Source: Desulfobulbaceae bacterium (GTDB lineage Bacteria; Desulfobacterota; Desulfobulbia; Desulfobulbales; Desulfocapsaceae). Taken from it: DNA of 45,028 nt. The notes beneath the pieces were generated by a model. That model was not told where the DNA came from and ran no database searches. It saw only the letters and a program-made list of their open reading frames with translations. Shown here piece by piece: positions 32,780-40,550 of this stretch. Within the stretch, counting starts at the first letter, position 1. Every line of letters starts with the position of its first letter. The stretch spans positions 1-45,028 of the forward strand of contig JAIFKM010000048.1 in the NCBI GenBank assembly GCA_020049575.1, read 5' to 3'. The translations under genes and the position numbers were made by a program.

Positions 32780-34004
32780 TTAGTAGCGATAATATTCAGG
32801 TTTATAGGGCCCATTGATTGGTACTCCTATATAATCAGCTTGTTCCTGGTTAAGTTGAGTAAGTACTGCACCAATTTTGCTGAGATGAAGTCTTGCCACC
32901 ATTTCGTCAAGTTCTTTCGGCAGAAAATACACCTTCCGCTCATATTTTTCTGAGTTCTGCCAAAGTTCTATCTGGGCCAGGACCTGGTTGGAGAATGAAT
33001 TACTCATAACAAAACTTGGATGACCTGTGGCGCAACCGAGATTGACGAGTCGTCCTTCGGCGAGGATTATGATTTTTTTGCCGTCTGGGAAAATGATGTG
33101 ATCAACTTGTGGTTTTATGTTTTCCCACGGTAAATCACGAATGCCAGCAATATCAATCTCCGAGTCAAAGTGTCCAATATTGCAAACTATAGATTCATTA
33201 GGCATTTTTTCCATATGTGCCCTGGTGATGACTCTCAGATTGCCAGTGCACGTTACAAAAATATTACCATAAACGGCTGCCTCGTCCATCGTCACGACTT
33301 TGTAGCCTTCCATTGCCGCTTGAAGTGCGCAGATTGGATCGATCTCGGTGACAAATACCGAGGCGCCCATACCGCGCAGGGCTTGGGCACAGCCCTTGCC
33401 TACATCCCCATAACCAACTACAACCGCTGTCGAACTTTGATTTAGTCACTGAATCATTAACATTGATAGCCGGGCATTTTAGTCGCCCATCTTTTGCCAT
33501 TTCATTGAGACGATGGACACCAGTGGTTGTTTCTTCACTGATTCCACGGATGTTTTTGAGTTCTGTGGTGTATTTCTCATGCATGACAAGAGTGAGGTCA
33601 CCCCCATCGTCGAGAATCATATTTGGCCGCCAGTTGTCTGGGCCGAAAATTGTCTGGTCAATACACCACCAGAAATCTTCCTCATTCTCACCTTTCCAGG
33701 CAAATGTTGGGATGCCGGCTGCAGCCATCGCGGCGGCCGCGTGATCCTGTGTCGAAAAAATATTACAGCTAGACCAACGGATTTCTGCGCCGAGCGCTGT
33801 GAGTGTTTCCATGAGTACAGCAGTCTGGATAGTCATATGCAGACAACCACCTATTCGTGCTCCTTTCAATGGTTGTTTGTCTGCATATTCCTTACGCAGT
33901 GCCATAAGACCAGGCATCTCTGTTTCGGCAATTTGGATCTCTTTTCGTCCCCAACTTGCAAGGGAGATATCAGCGACTTTAAAATCATCATGTTGAGTAG
34001 TCAT
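32780..34004 (-). pseudogene. ahcY: S-adenosylhomocysteinase with an internal deletion and frameshift
   Basis: Two adjoining minus-strand frames together give AhcY. The first (from the ATG at 34004) has [32 protein letters not shown] and [12 protein letters not shown], ending at Asp192 (33431-33429). The second resumes in another frame at 33427 with [18 protein letters not shown] (NAD-binding) and runs to the family C-terminus KPEYYRY. The stretch normally between them, about 25 residues beginning NLYGCRE, is missing. One base remains at 33428, so about 74 nt are deleted and the frame is lost. No other damage is visible, so the event is recent or an assembly error. The gene lies 56 nt downstream of metK on the same strand. 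Confidence 0.85.
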
Positions 34005-36726: not shown

Positions 36727-39237
36727 TTATTCGGGATTGCTATGGAAGGCCCAGTTTTTTGTCGACTCTGAATAGCTATAGTACATGACCAGCTTCAAAG
36801 GACGTCCCCTGCCTTCTTCCGTACACTGAAGCTTGAAGATCAGTTTGTCTCCGGCATCTTTGATGAAGGTGATTACAGGTGAAGTGAGAGTTTCCGGTGC
36901 GGCGGCGGGATAGTTCTCGGAAAACAAGGTTTGGTAGTTGTCTTCGAGGTATTTGATCTTGTCGGCAATATACAGCTTGTCTTTGAAATCCTTGATTTTC
37001 TTGTTTGATTCTGTGAGGATTGTTTGAAATTCTTTCTCTTTTCCTGCTGGGCTCTTGTTAATTGCCTCTATTACGAGCAAGAGATTTTTCTCAGCTTCGA
37101 TCCAGTTTTCTTCCTTGACAAGCCTGTCCACTTCCTGGCGGTCTCTGATGATCGAGGCCTGAAGCATAATGCGGGTGAGTTTCTCCCTGTTCTGCTCTAA
37201 ATCTTGAGGGTTGAGCAGGCCTTGGTTATCCATGAGAATTTTGCTGGCTTTGGCATATTTCTTTATGGCCTCGTCCCACTGACCGTCAGTAAAAGCAGTT
37301 TTGCCTTCATTGATGGTTGAATAGAGTTCGGCTTTGATAATGTCCCCTTGTAGCGAACTGAGTTCTTGAGTTTCGGATTGGTCCAACTTTGCACCGAGGG
37401 CCATGGCATTCTGAAAGTGCATAAAAGCTCCTGTCCAATCAGAACCAGCGAAGAGTTCGTCACCCTTCTGCTTGAGCAGCAGGAAAATACATTTATCGAG
37501 CTGCGGCCTGATCTCAGCGCTCAAGTTCTGTTGATTCTCGACGTCAAGATTTTTCATCTCCGCAAGGGCCAGTTCGAAATTCTGGCGGGCTTGTTGCCAT
37601 GATTTCTGACTCATCGCTTCCTTGCCGTTCTGCATGAGCAGACGGGTCTTAGCCAATGAAAGCTTAGTTTGAAGTTCGGCAAGATATGTGCTTTCAGTCT
37701 TGTTATTTTTCTTGAGGGATTCGAGACCTTGTGTATACGCGTCAATGGCATTCTGCCATTTTGACGCCAACATAAATTTGTCGCCTTCTGCTACGATATC
37801 TTTTGATGATTTGAGAATATCTGCTGTGGCCTGCAGTACATATTTGCCGTCAAGCAGGACAAACCCGGCAAGTCCCTGACGCATCTCTTCTGAAGTAAGA
37901 ATAGCATCGATCTTTTGATTGAGCTCGAATCGTGCCTGTTGTTTAAAAAAGAGCACGTCCTTGGAAAGGGCTAGAGCAGAGGTACATGATTTTGAGGCTG
38001 CCTCAAATTGTTTTGCCTCCATCTGTTGATAACATTGGTTAAAAAGTTGTTCAGCTTGAGTATATTGACTATTTTCTGAGGAGTAAAAATAGGCGAGAGG
38101 TGCTGCGATGAAAAGGATAGAACAGATAATGACCACGGGAACAACATTGAATTGGCGTTTGCTTTTTTCGGTATAGAACGTAAGACCTGAAGATTTAGTA
38201 GTTTTTTTCTCCTGAACTTTTCTGTCCTTCTTTGTCTTTTCCAGGACCTTGGCACCGTTTTTGGCTTTTTCACCATCGGCCTGAACCCAATCGCCAAGAA
38301 GATCTTTGGACTGTTCTGTTCGACGGATATCGTCATGAATTTTGGGGTAGTCGCTTACCAACTCCTCTACCGCAATATATTTTTCCAGGGCCTTGCCGGG
38401 AAGCCCTTGGTGTTCAAAGGATTCTCCCTGTGAATAAATTTGTCGTGCTTCGGTGAAGACCGTTTCGATTCTCGCTGCGAGTTCTTCTTTACCTTCAAAA
38501 TCTGTCTCTGCAGGGAGATCTTTGAGGATACCTTTGAGTTGAAGAAAACGTTTTTGTCGAGACAGGAGCCAGATAGTTTCAACGTCAATGACAGGTTCTT
38601 TACTCGAACCTTCTGGAGCAAGCGGAGAAGCTTCTTCAGTTTTTCGGGCCTTTTTTTCTTCCTGTTCGATTCCAAGAAAATCAAAATCTGAAGTGAAGTC
38701 GGAGTCTTCTAACGTATCTATTTGAATCTCTTGAGTGATTGATGAAGAGAGTGATGATGTGTCGGGCTGTCTTTGAAGAGATTCCTGGCCCTTGAGTTCA
38801 GCAAAAGGGAGTTTGTCTGTGTTTTCTCGATACCAGAGGGCCGCTTCTTCGTTAAAAGTGTTTTCTTTTGAATAGATTTCCCCTGCAATCATCTTCCCTA
38901 TAAAATAAATAAGATCAGAAAGCGATCGATCATGCTCCCAGAAATCACCGAGACAGATTGCAGCTGGATCAAAGTCGGGATGAAAGAGCGGAGTTTTGGG
39001 CTTGCAACTCGGCGGGAAGTGTGGAAAACCAAAGGGAATGGTTATAGTTATAATATGGTTTGAGGTTTGTTGAATCTTGCCGGTCTCATCTTTGTAGACT
39101 CCGGTAAGAGTATAGCGGACTTCATACTGGTCAGGGGGGTCACCTTTGATCGGGGTGACCACAATAGAGGGATGCTGTGCAAAAGCCTCTCGGACTTCTT
39201 GGAAAATGTCTGCAAGCTGCTGTGTCTCTAAGCCCAT
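36727..39237 (-). CDS. Membrane protein with N-terminal E2/UBC-like domain and TPR-like repeats
   Basis: Residues 1-145 read like a ubiquitin-conjugating (E2) fold: a beta-strand segment HIITITIPFGFPHFPPSCKP, then FHPDFDPAAICLGDFW, where HPD (86-88) and Cys95 sit where E2 enzymes have HPN and the catalytic Cys, and then helices (DLIYFIGKMIAGEIYS, EEAALWYREN). An acidic, Ser-rich linker and a TPR-like stretch follow (about 215-310). A strongly basic segment precedes one membrane span (about 364-386), predicting a cytoplasmic N-terminus. The rest (about 390-760) is repeated helical TPR-like sequence on the far side of the membrane, with a small C-terminal beta-rich domain. Whether it transfers a ubiquitin-like modifier is unknown; no E1 or ubiquitin-like gene is in the window. 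Confidence 0.75.
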   Translation of the reverse strand: MGLETQQLADIFQEVREAFAQHPSIVVTPIKGDPPDQYEVRYTLTGVYKDETGKIQQTSNHIITITIPFGFPHFPPSCKPKTPLFHPDFDPAAICLGDFWEHDRSLSDLIYFIGKMIAGEIYSKENTFNEEAALWYRENTDKLPFAELKGQESLQRQPDTSSLSSSITQEIQIDTLEDSDFTSDFDFLGIEQEEKKARKTEEASPLAPEGSSKEPVIDVETIWLLSRQKRFLQLKGILKDLPAETDFEGKEELAARIETVFTEARQIYSQGESFEHQGLPGKALEKYIAVEELVSDYPKIHDDIRRTEQSKDLLGDWVQADGEKAKNGAKVLEKTKKDRKVQEKKTTKSSGLTFYTEKSKRQFNVVPVVIICSILFIAAPLAYFYSSENSQYTQAEQLFNQCYQQMEAKQFEAASKSCTSALALSKDVLFFKQQARFELNQKIDAILTSEEMRQGLAGFVLLDGKYVLQATADILKSSKDIVAEGDKFMLASKWQNAIDAYTQGLESLKKNNKTESTYLAELQTKLSLAKTRLLMQNGKEAMSQKSWQQARQNFELALAEMKNLDVENQQNLSAEIRPQLDKCIFLLLKQKGDELFAGSDWTGAFMHFQNAMALGAKLDQSETQELSSLQGDIIKAELYSTINEGKTAFTDGQWDEAIKKYAKASKILMDNQGLLNPQDLEQNREKLTRIMLQASIIRDRQEVDRLVKEENWIEAEKNLLLVIEAINKSPAGKEKEFQTILTESNKKIKDFKDKLYIADKIKYLEDNYQTLFSENYPAAAPETLTSPVITFIKDAGDKLIFKLQCTEEGRGRPLKLVMYYSYSESTKNWAFHSNPE

Positions 39238-39284
39238 AAAAAATCCCGGCTGAAAATAAAGGTTAAACGACGATTTCCGTGTCT

Positions 39285-39312
39285 ATTATAACAACATCTT
39301 TGGGTAACTCAA
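39285..39312 (-). promoter_or_regulatory. Probable promoter of the E2-like gene
   Basis: On the minus strand, TTGAGT (39312-39307) and a perfect TATAAT (39290-39285) are 16 nt apart. Transcription would start near 39278, about 40 nt before the ATG. Confidence 0.5.
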
Positions 39313-39340
39313 AAAAAATCGTATGAATTTGAAATATAGG

Positions 39341-39368
39341 AAAAAAATACCTTCGCTCTTGCGAAGGT
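39341..39368 (-). terminator. Minus-strand terminator upstream of the E2-like gene
   Basis: ACCTTCGC (39349-39356) and GCGAAGGT (39361-39368) form a perfect 8-pair hairpin with a 4-nt loop. Read on the minus strand it is followed by TA and then seven T residues, so it is a good terminator in that direction. No annotated gene ends there. Confidence 0.6.
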
Positions 39369-39488
39369 TCAGGCCTGCTGTATTGAGGGGCACTTGGCCA
39401 AATAACCTTCGGGCTGATCTCAAATGTGTTTTGACGATATCAGTTCTCCATCGATTTAACCCTGTTTATTTCTTGATATGTGGTCGAT

Positions 39489-40550
39489 ATGAAACAGTTT
39501 AAGGCAGTCTTTGAGATTGTTGAACAAAACAATTGTCCACTCTACGTGGCAGGAGAATGCCTTACTCTTTCCGATCGGGCCATTGGGTGTCCTGAAGGCA
39601 AAGAGGTGTGCCTGATATTGGTGCGTGAAATGACGGAGCTCCTTTTTGTTTTACTGAAAAAAAAATCGGTTGACGGCCAGGGTGAACAGGATCATCGACT
39701 GTATACCTGCAGTGGATGCACAGGCCTTATAAAGTTCCGTCGGGTGCGAAATTCCGTCCCGGTATCAACAACAAAAGGCCCTGCTGCTCAGATACGATCT
39801 ATAGCAAGTCTCCTCAAGGGTCGGAAGATCGACAGCCCCTTTCTTCGAGTTTTGCCTGAGAGCGTGCTTGAGAACTTTTTTAAAGCGTGTAATGAGGTGG
39901 TCATTGAAGAGAGGGGCATCCTGATTCACAAAGGAGAACCTAACCACAATCTGTATATTATCCTAGAAGGCATCCTCCTTGTAGAGGATACCCACGTTAT
40001 AATTGCCACTCTCGGAGAGGGTGAGATCTGCGGTGAAATGAGCTATCTGGGCTCTGGTGTGGCTGGTTTGACAGTGAGAGCGAAACAGGAGAGCGTGGTG
40101 CTGGCCATTCATGGTGAGGACTTCAGTCGACTACTTGGCTCAATAGCCTCGGTTCAGGTGTTCATGGCCCAACTTCTTGCCTCGAGACTGCAGAAAACTA
40201 ATGCAGCCCGAGCAAAAGAGTTTGAATCATGCATGTCTGGAAAGCTGGACGAGGTTGTCCCTGCTGAACTTTTCCAAATATTCCATATGCATCAGAAGAC
40301 TGGCGTTTTGACATTCCACTTGCAGGAGGGCGAAGGTAAAGTCTCTTTCCGGGAAGGTTGTATTATCAATGCGCACTATGGCAAGAAGGTGCATCAGGAT
40401 GCAATATTTGCTATTCTTGCTGAAAAACAAGGGGCTTACAGATTTACAGCTGGTTTGACACCTCAAGAAATGAAAGCAGCAGAAATTGGCGATTTCATGA
40501 TGCTTTTGATGGAAGGTGTAAAAAGAATAGATGAAGAGCAGACTGTCTGA
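39489..40550 (+). CDS. Cys-rich N-terminal domain, cNMP-binding domain and DUF4388-like domain protein
   Basis: The first 95 or so residues contain six cysteines (NNCPLYVAGEC, AIGCPEGKEVC, TCSGC), suggestive of metal or Fe-S binding. Residues about 115-225 form a cyclic-nucleotide-binding domain (GILIHKGEPNHNLYIILEG, LGEGEICGEMSYLGSG). The C-terminal 110 residues resemble DUF4388/PATAN (LFQIFHMHQKTGVLTFHL, GKVSFREGCIINAHYG). There is no helix-turn-helix, so it is more likely a signalling adaptor than a Crp-type transcription factor. I prefer the ATG at 39489; a GTG at 39480 is possible and neither has a clear ribosome-binding site. It is divergent from the E2-like gene. Confidence 0.75.
   Translation: MKQFKAVFEIVEQNNCPLYVAGECLTLSDRAIGCPEGKEVCLILVREMTELLFVLLKKKSVDGQGEQDHRLYTCSGCTGLIKFRRVRNSVPVSTTKGPAAQIRSIASLLKGRKIDSPFLRVLPESVLENFFKACNEVVIEERGILIHKGEPNHNLYIILEGILLVEDTHVIIATLGEGEICGEMSYLGSGVAGLTVRAKQESVVLAIHGEDFSRLLGSIASVQVFMAQLLASRLQKTNAARAKEFESCMSGKLDEVVPAELFQIFHMHQKTGVLTFHLQEGEGKVSFREGCIINAHYGKKVHQDAIFAILAEKQGAYRFTAGLTPQEMKAAEIGDFMMLLMEGVKRIDEEQTV

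Follow-up and report, generated by a model that had tools for sequence, protein, structure and literature searches.

The E2-like membrane protein and its neighborhood

The window, by which we mean the whole stretch of 45,028 nucleotides that was analyzed, encodes on its reverse strand a protein of 836 residues (36727..39237, −), orthologues of which are found in the window's family, f1, in 84 of 93 genomes. The protein begins with an E2/UBC-like domain (residues 1-148; 38794..39237, −), which was delimited by profile searches, hhalign, and conservation. A preliminary description had reported the E2-type motifs FPHFPPSCKP, FHPDFDPAAICLGDFW, and EEAALWY in this open reading frame, and we found all three at the claimed positions, with His86 nine residues before Cys95. 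His86-Pro87-Asp88 (38974..38982, −) is the counterpart of the HPN motif of E2 enzymes, Cys95 (38953..38955, −) is at the position of the catalytic cysteine, and a further cysteine, Cys78, belongs to a PPxCKP motif (39004..39006, −). The E2-like domain is followed by a helical, TPR-like segment (residues 216-320; 38278..38592, −), a single membrane span (residues 365-383; 38089..38145, −), a second TPR-like helical array (residues 386-780; 36898..38082, −), and a small C-terminal beta domain (residues 781-836; 36730..36897, −).

The preliminary description had placed the span at about residues 364-386, after a basic stretch. This agrees with the hydrophobic segment of 19 residues that we identified, whose N-terminal flank is basic, and a span was present in every homologue checked except one fragment that ends at a contig end. 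Because of this charge pattern and the absence of a signal peptide, the N-terminus most likely faces the cytosol, and the E2-like domain and the first TPR-like segment would thus be cytosolic and the second array periplasmic. The proposed TPR-like nature of the region beyond the span was borne out by a Pfam match to TPR_2 above the cut-off (E=2.1e-7) and by structure prediction: for residues 385-836, AlphaFold2 gave a model (pLDDT 83) that matched TPR structures in Foldseek, with residues 781-836 modelled as a small four-stranded domain. All matches of the protein in an NCBIfam search were far below the cut-off. The E2 domain is the best-conserved region, with a mean identity of 55.8% to the orthologues of the family versus 33.1% for the periplasmic TPR region, and the C-terminal beta domain ranks second. 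Two cysteines in the first periplasmic hairpin (residues 402 and 418) are conserved across the window's family and possibly form a disulfide.

Within the order Desulfobulbales, the gene was detected in 158 of 243 genomes, whereas a phylum-wide survey (Desulfobacterota) found it in only 7 of 297. Family f1, whose nearest named relative is a Desulfoprunum MAG, shares with family f2 the locus order metK/ahcY, kpsF, the E2/TPR gene, its divergent partner, a HAD gene, a CxxCxxCC gene, and secDF. The E2/TPR gene resembles a core gene that is passed on vertically rather than a mobile or defence element. A role as a defence system was considered and rejected, as there was no PADLOC match and the core syntenic inheritance speaks against it. 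In the window, the gene for S-adenosylhomocysteine hydrolase, ahcY (32780-34004, −), occupies two overlapping reading frames (33264-34004 and 32780-33370), either because of a frameshift or because the contig was misassembled.

The only conserved functional neighbor is the divergently encoded gene at 39480..40550 (+), which was characterized by Pfam searches and neighborhood comparisons and remains next to the E2/TPR gene in families f3 and f99 despite changed surroundings. Its product combines a Cys-rich N-terminal domain, a cNMP-binding domain, and DUF4388. The Cys-rich domain, with four invariant cysteines, and DUF4388 occur in all linked partners, and the cNMP-binding domain is present in f1 and part of f3 and absent in f2. 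The best sigma-70-like site in the intergenic region of the divergent pair (39238..39479) is at 39312-39285 (−), but promoter and terminator scans gave no more sites than shuffled sequences, including the sigma-70-like count in this region. The partner is one of several paralogues, with often 3-5 copies per genome, and Pfam recognized no DNA-binding domain in the linked copy. We take DUF4388 to be the PATAN domain. In cyanobacteria, the PATAN domain forms a link between signals and the motors of type IV pili (PMC7690835), which for the partner studied here serves as a pointer only.

The N-terminal domain belongs to the E2 superfamily

The single window protein matched the Pfam family UQ_con with E=1.5e-4 and 21.8 bits, below the curated cut-off of 27 bits. 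Each of 58 homologous domains (58/58) matched the same family, with a best E-value of 2.9e-9, and relatives above the cut-off include those of genomes G180 (33.8 bits) and G118 (33.6 bits). In the reverse direction, a profile built from the 58 domains retrieved E2s of solved structure, UBE2C among them (E=2.7e-7), in an alignment that covered the HPN and Cys region. A hhalign comparison with three human E2s gave E=9.5e-8 and a probability of 94. AlphaFold2 modelling of residues 1-167 from two input sequences yielded a poor model (pLDDT 45) with an E2-like order of elements, and its best Foldseek matches were E2s with E-values of only about 0.1, so that confirmation of the fold rests on the sequence profiles. 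Matches to the RWD profile were marginal (3 of the 58 members, best E 0.042), none of the Pfam families Prok-E2_A to E matched the window protein or its homologues, and PADLOC gave no match to the E2 families of the Bil and CBASS systems. Judged by these profile statistics, which are firm, the N-terminal domain is a true relative of the E2 superfamily, and the resemblance noted in the preliminary description goes beyond chance.

Homology to the eukaryotic enzymes UBE2C, UBC9, and UBE2D is evident at the profile level for about residues 43 to 140, and the positions of the His-Pro motif and the cysteine are shared. The protein family studied here differs from these E2s in having HPD instead of HPN, in a cysteine that is not universal, in the absence of a cascade, and in its spacings, which are one residue shorter from His to Cys and three residues shorter from Cys to Trp.

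Kinship with cassette E2s and orthologues without the domain

When we searched the phylum with UQ_con, the nearest E2s found outside the order were Cys-bearing, HPN-type proteins encoded inside complete conjugation cassettes. The E2 of genome G586 (L174:8933-10018; HPN and Cys present) was recovered with E=1.4e-34 by an HMM of the window's protein family and is 31% identical to the window domain over 142 residues. Its cassette (L174:3904-17842) contains genes for a ThiF-type E1, JAB, Prok-RING_1, FHA, DnaJ, AAA, and subtilase proteins; kinase and trypsin genes are also present. The E2 of G169 (L184:7325-7882), likewise with Cys and HPN, is more distant (E=7.8e-9), and its cassette (L184:5468-11977) includes an E1 gene, an AAA gene, weak JAB and RING matches, and a small open reading frame without Pfam match that was judged by eye from its sequence to be ubiquitin-like. 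The AAA protein of this cassette has OB domains like those of proteasomal ATPases. The cassette E2s have the same E2 domain and the same His-Pro and Cys positions as the window protein, but they carry HPN, belong to cassettes of several genes, and lack the fusion to a membrane TPR protein. As they are the nearest relatives, the window's domain appears to be a cassette-type E2 that was captured by a membrane TPR scaffold.

This scaffold also exists without the domain. Membrane TPR orthologues that lack any E2 domain, in which the cytosolic TPR-like segment has a counterpart, were found in families f107 and f102 and in genome G004, and no adjacent partner gene accompanies the E2-less orthologues of G004, G394, G404, and G416. 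The simplest account would be that a cassette-type E2 was fused to an older membrane TPR protein and that the domain was later lost in G004. These orthologues, the cassette kinship, and the divergent partner gene had been missing from the preliminary description, the account of which was to this extent incomplete.

Two genera of f1 additionally encode paralogues of about 530 residues that lack the cysteine and group with f2 on the tree (L035, L037, and L038 in genus g8; L033, L034, and L036 in g7). By eye from sequence, the g8 paralogues adjoin clpS- and clpA-like genes, and an FtsH-like gene is located close to the E2-less orthologues of f107 (L160:2892-8610 and L161:2539-8103).

It is conceivable that the membrane TPR protein alone carries out the conserved work, for example in envelope assembly or proteostasis, in which case the E2 domain would be an appendage with a regulatory role and gene order alone would explain the position of the divergent gene. 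Retention of the rest of the protein in the E2-less orthologues fits this explanation, as do the FtsH-like and clpS/clpA-like neighbors just mentioned. However, no part of the protein is better conserved than the E2 domain, and the divergent neighbor persists across families with otherwise differing neighborhoods, and we therefore regard this explanation as unlikely.

The active-site cysteine has been lost repeatedly

Cys95 is present in 67 of 107 distinct domains and replaced by other residues in 40. Among the distinct orthologues of f1, 60 of 64 (94%) have Cys95; the exceptions carry Arg (G042), Ser (G043), His (G046), or Tyr (G080), and G042 and G043 belong to the window's own genus. At the same syntenic place in f2, Arg occupies position 95, with Ala in rare cases; f3 proteins have Cys, Lys, or Arg there, and G118, which lies outside the order and shows the same E2-TPR-span-TPR layout, has Asp. 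The tree requires at least five changes at this position, or six with the cassette E2s as outgroup, the root being unsure because of long branches. His86 and Pro87 are invariant and Trp100 is nearly so, including in members without Cys95; at the third residue of the motif, we counted 85 HPD, 3 HPE, 2 HPA, and 1 HPN (His in 91/91). The proposed check, conservation of both HPD and Cys95 in close homologues, thus gave a split result: HPD is nearly invariant (85/91), but Cys95 is replaced by Arg and Ser within the same genus and absent from the sister family. Relaxed constraint after loss of the cysteine was tested and not seen, as the E2 domains of three full-length f1 orthologues without Cys95 were no looser than the rest of the protein predicts (z from −1.4 to +0.4).

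Conservation of the catalytic cysteine across the whole family, as expected of a catalytic E2, was thus not found. As Cys95 was lost repeatedly and the rest of the domain was kept, the conserved function of the fold is independent of the thiol in much of the family. At least five losses of the active-site cysteine in a conserved domain suggest that the E2 fold has been reused as a docking module, and a thioester-independent binding module was indeed among the options that had been rightly listed at the outset.

Cys78 occurs in every Cys95-bearing member, is missing from the clade formed by the Cys95-less f2 proteins and the paralogues, and changed once on the tree. Cys78 and Cys95 might therefore form a redox-sensitive or metal-binding site, which perhaps exchanges thiols or metal with the partner, in which the four N-terminal cysteines are invariant. 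As Cys78 is retained without Cys95 in several lineages, and as the cysteines of the partner persist where the E2 domain has neither Cys95 nor Cys78, such a site is very unlikely to be the explanation.

No conserved conjugation partners accompany the protein

The window contains no E1 or JAB gene, as had been noted before, and no ubiquitin-like gene either, and our survey found none of the three conserved near the homologous loci in any lineage of the order. JAB matches are sparse in the family (8 of 60 over the cut-off, none in the window's genome). Most genomes encode two or more ThiF-family proteins, and these are also found where Cys95 or the entire E2 domain is missing. A co-occurring E1 or JAB as the partner of the E2-like protein was therefore rejected, as ThiF proteins are present whatever the state of Cys95 or the E2 domain and JAB is sparse.

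These data bear on the possibility of an active E2 in the Cys-bearing lineages, in which a housekeeping ThiF/MoeB/TcdA-type enzyme would charge Cys95 with a ThiS/MoaD-like or unrecognized small protein that is passed on to membrane-proximal targets, the Cys-less lineages having lost the activity. The high conservation of Cys95 in the window's family, its alignment with the catalytic cysteine of E2s, the complete cassettes of the kin E2s, and the general availability of ThiF proteins would agree with this. Against it stand the lack of conserved E1, ubiquitin-like, or JAB genes nearby, the scarcity of JAB, the indifference of ThiF occurrence to Cys95 and the E2 domain, the Arg and Ser residues in two congeners, and the substitution of Asp for the HPN asparagine in almost every member. 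We consider an active E2 quite unlikely, and it is still more improbable that the Cys95 lineages possess a membrane-anchored E2 without dedicated cassette that is charged by a housekeeping ThiF-family enzyme and thus constitutes a chromosomally core conjugation pathway at the inner membrane.

Association with the divergent partner

Genomes G004 and G005, which lack the E2 domain, contain no close copy of the partner, and neither do the f1 genomes in which position 95 is Arg, Ser, His, or Tyr. Full-length partners accompany 53 of 63 orthologues with Cys95 and 2 of 33 without it when ancestry is ignored. The pairing is not strict, as an adjacent partner is missing beside nine Cys95-bearing orthologues and a full-length one is found beside two with Arg95. 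When ancestry was allowed for, three of five independent pairs agreed and none opposed (p=0.25), and the association is therefore suggestive only; a strict tie between Cys95 and the full-length partner was rejected, since the strong raw table is not significant given ancestry.

Proposed role of the E2-like domain

We propose, with a probability of about 0.5, that the E2-like domain is a cytosolic docking module with the divergent regulator as its likely ligand and with the membrane span and TPR array as output. A Cys-bearing E2 of the E1/E2/JAB/RING cassette type would have been added N-terminally to an older protein that crosses the membrane once and carries TPR-like repeats on either side, and this E2 would now serve mainly as a cytosolic binding module that is mostly non-catalytic and resembles in this respect the Cys-less E2 variants (UEVs) of eukaryotes. 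Docking may occur at the conserved face around His86-Pro87-Asp88, the PFGFPHFPP loop, and Trp100; the best candidate for the bound protein is the Cys-rich/(cNMP)/DUF4388 regulator encoded by the divergent gene, and the span would couple docking to the periplasmic TPR/beta part. Docking itself, the identity of the docked protein, and the coupling across the membrane are what we infer. The retention of Cys95 in 60 of 64 f1 orthologues exceeds the need of a pure docking role and counts against the docking module, as do the loose pairing with the partner, the non-significant link between Cys95 and a full-length partner when ancestry is considered, and the low confidence of the model of the E2 fold.

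E2 domains that lack the catalytic cysteine, as do many members of the wider protein family, are known from eukaryotic UEV/RWD proteins and from inactive E2/RWD-like domains encoded in polyUbl operons of bacteria (PMC1779556), but the family described here keeps the His-Pro motif without the cysteine and has no Ubl, E1, or JAB gene nearby. BilB, the E2 of BilABCD, and the CBASS E1-E2 proteins are likewise of bacterial E2 type; unlike the window protein, BilB has a CEHH motif and is encoded in a four-gene operon (PMC11354881). Bacterial E2-like proteins occur in operons with E1, JAB, and Ubl genes (PMC1779556), and they are also known from Bil and CBASS systems (PMC11354881; PMC10097602). None of the open-licence papers that we searched describes a core protein, present across an order, that combines an E2-like domain, a membrane span, and TPRs without a cassette. 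The bacterial E2-like proteins of the cited papers are encoded in cassettes of several genes for conjugation or defence, whereas here the domain belongs to a core gene of an order and is carried on a TPR scaffold in the membrane. Because the active-site cysteine is naturally replaced even within one genus, the family offers a natural experiment on the E2 fold without thioester chemistry and on E2 repurposing outside eukaryotes.
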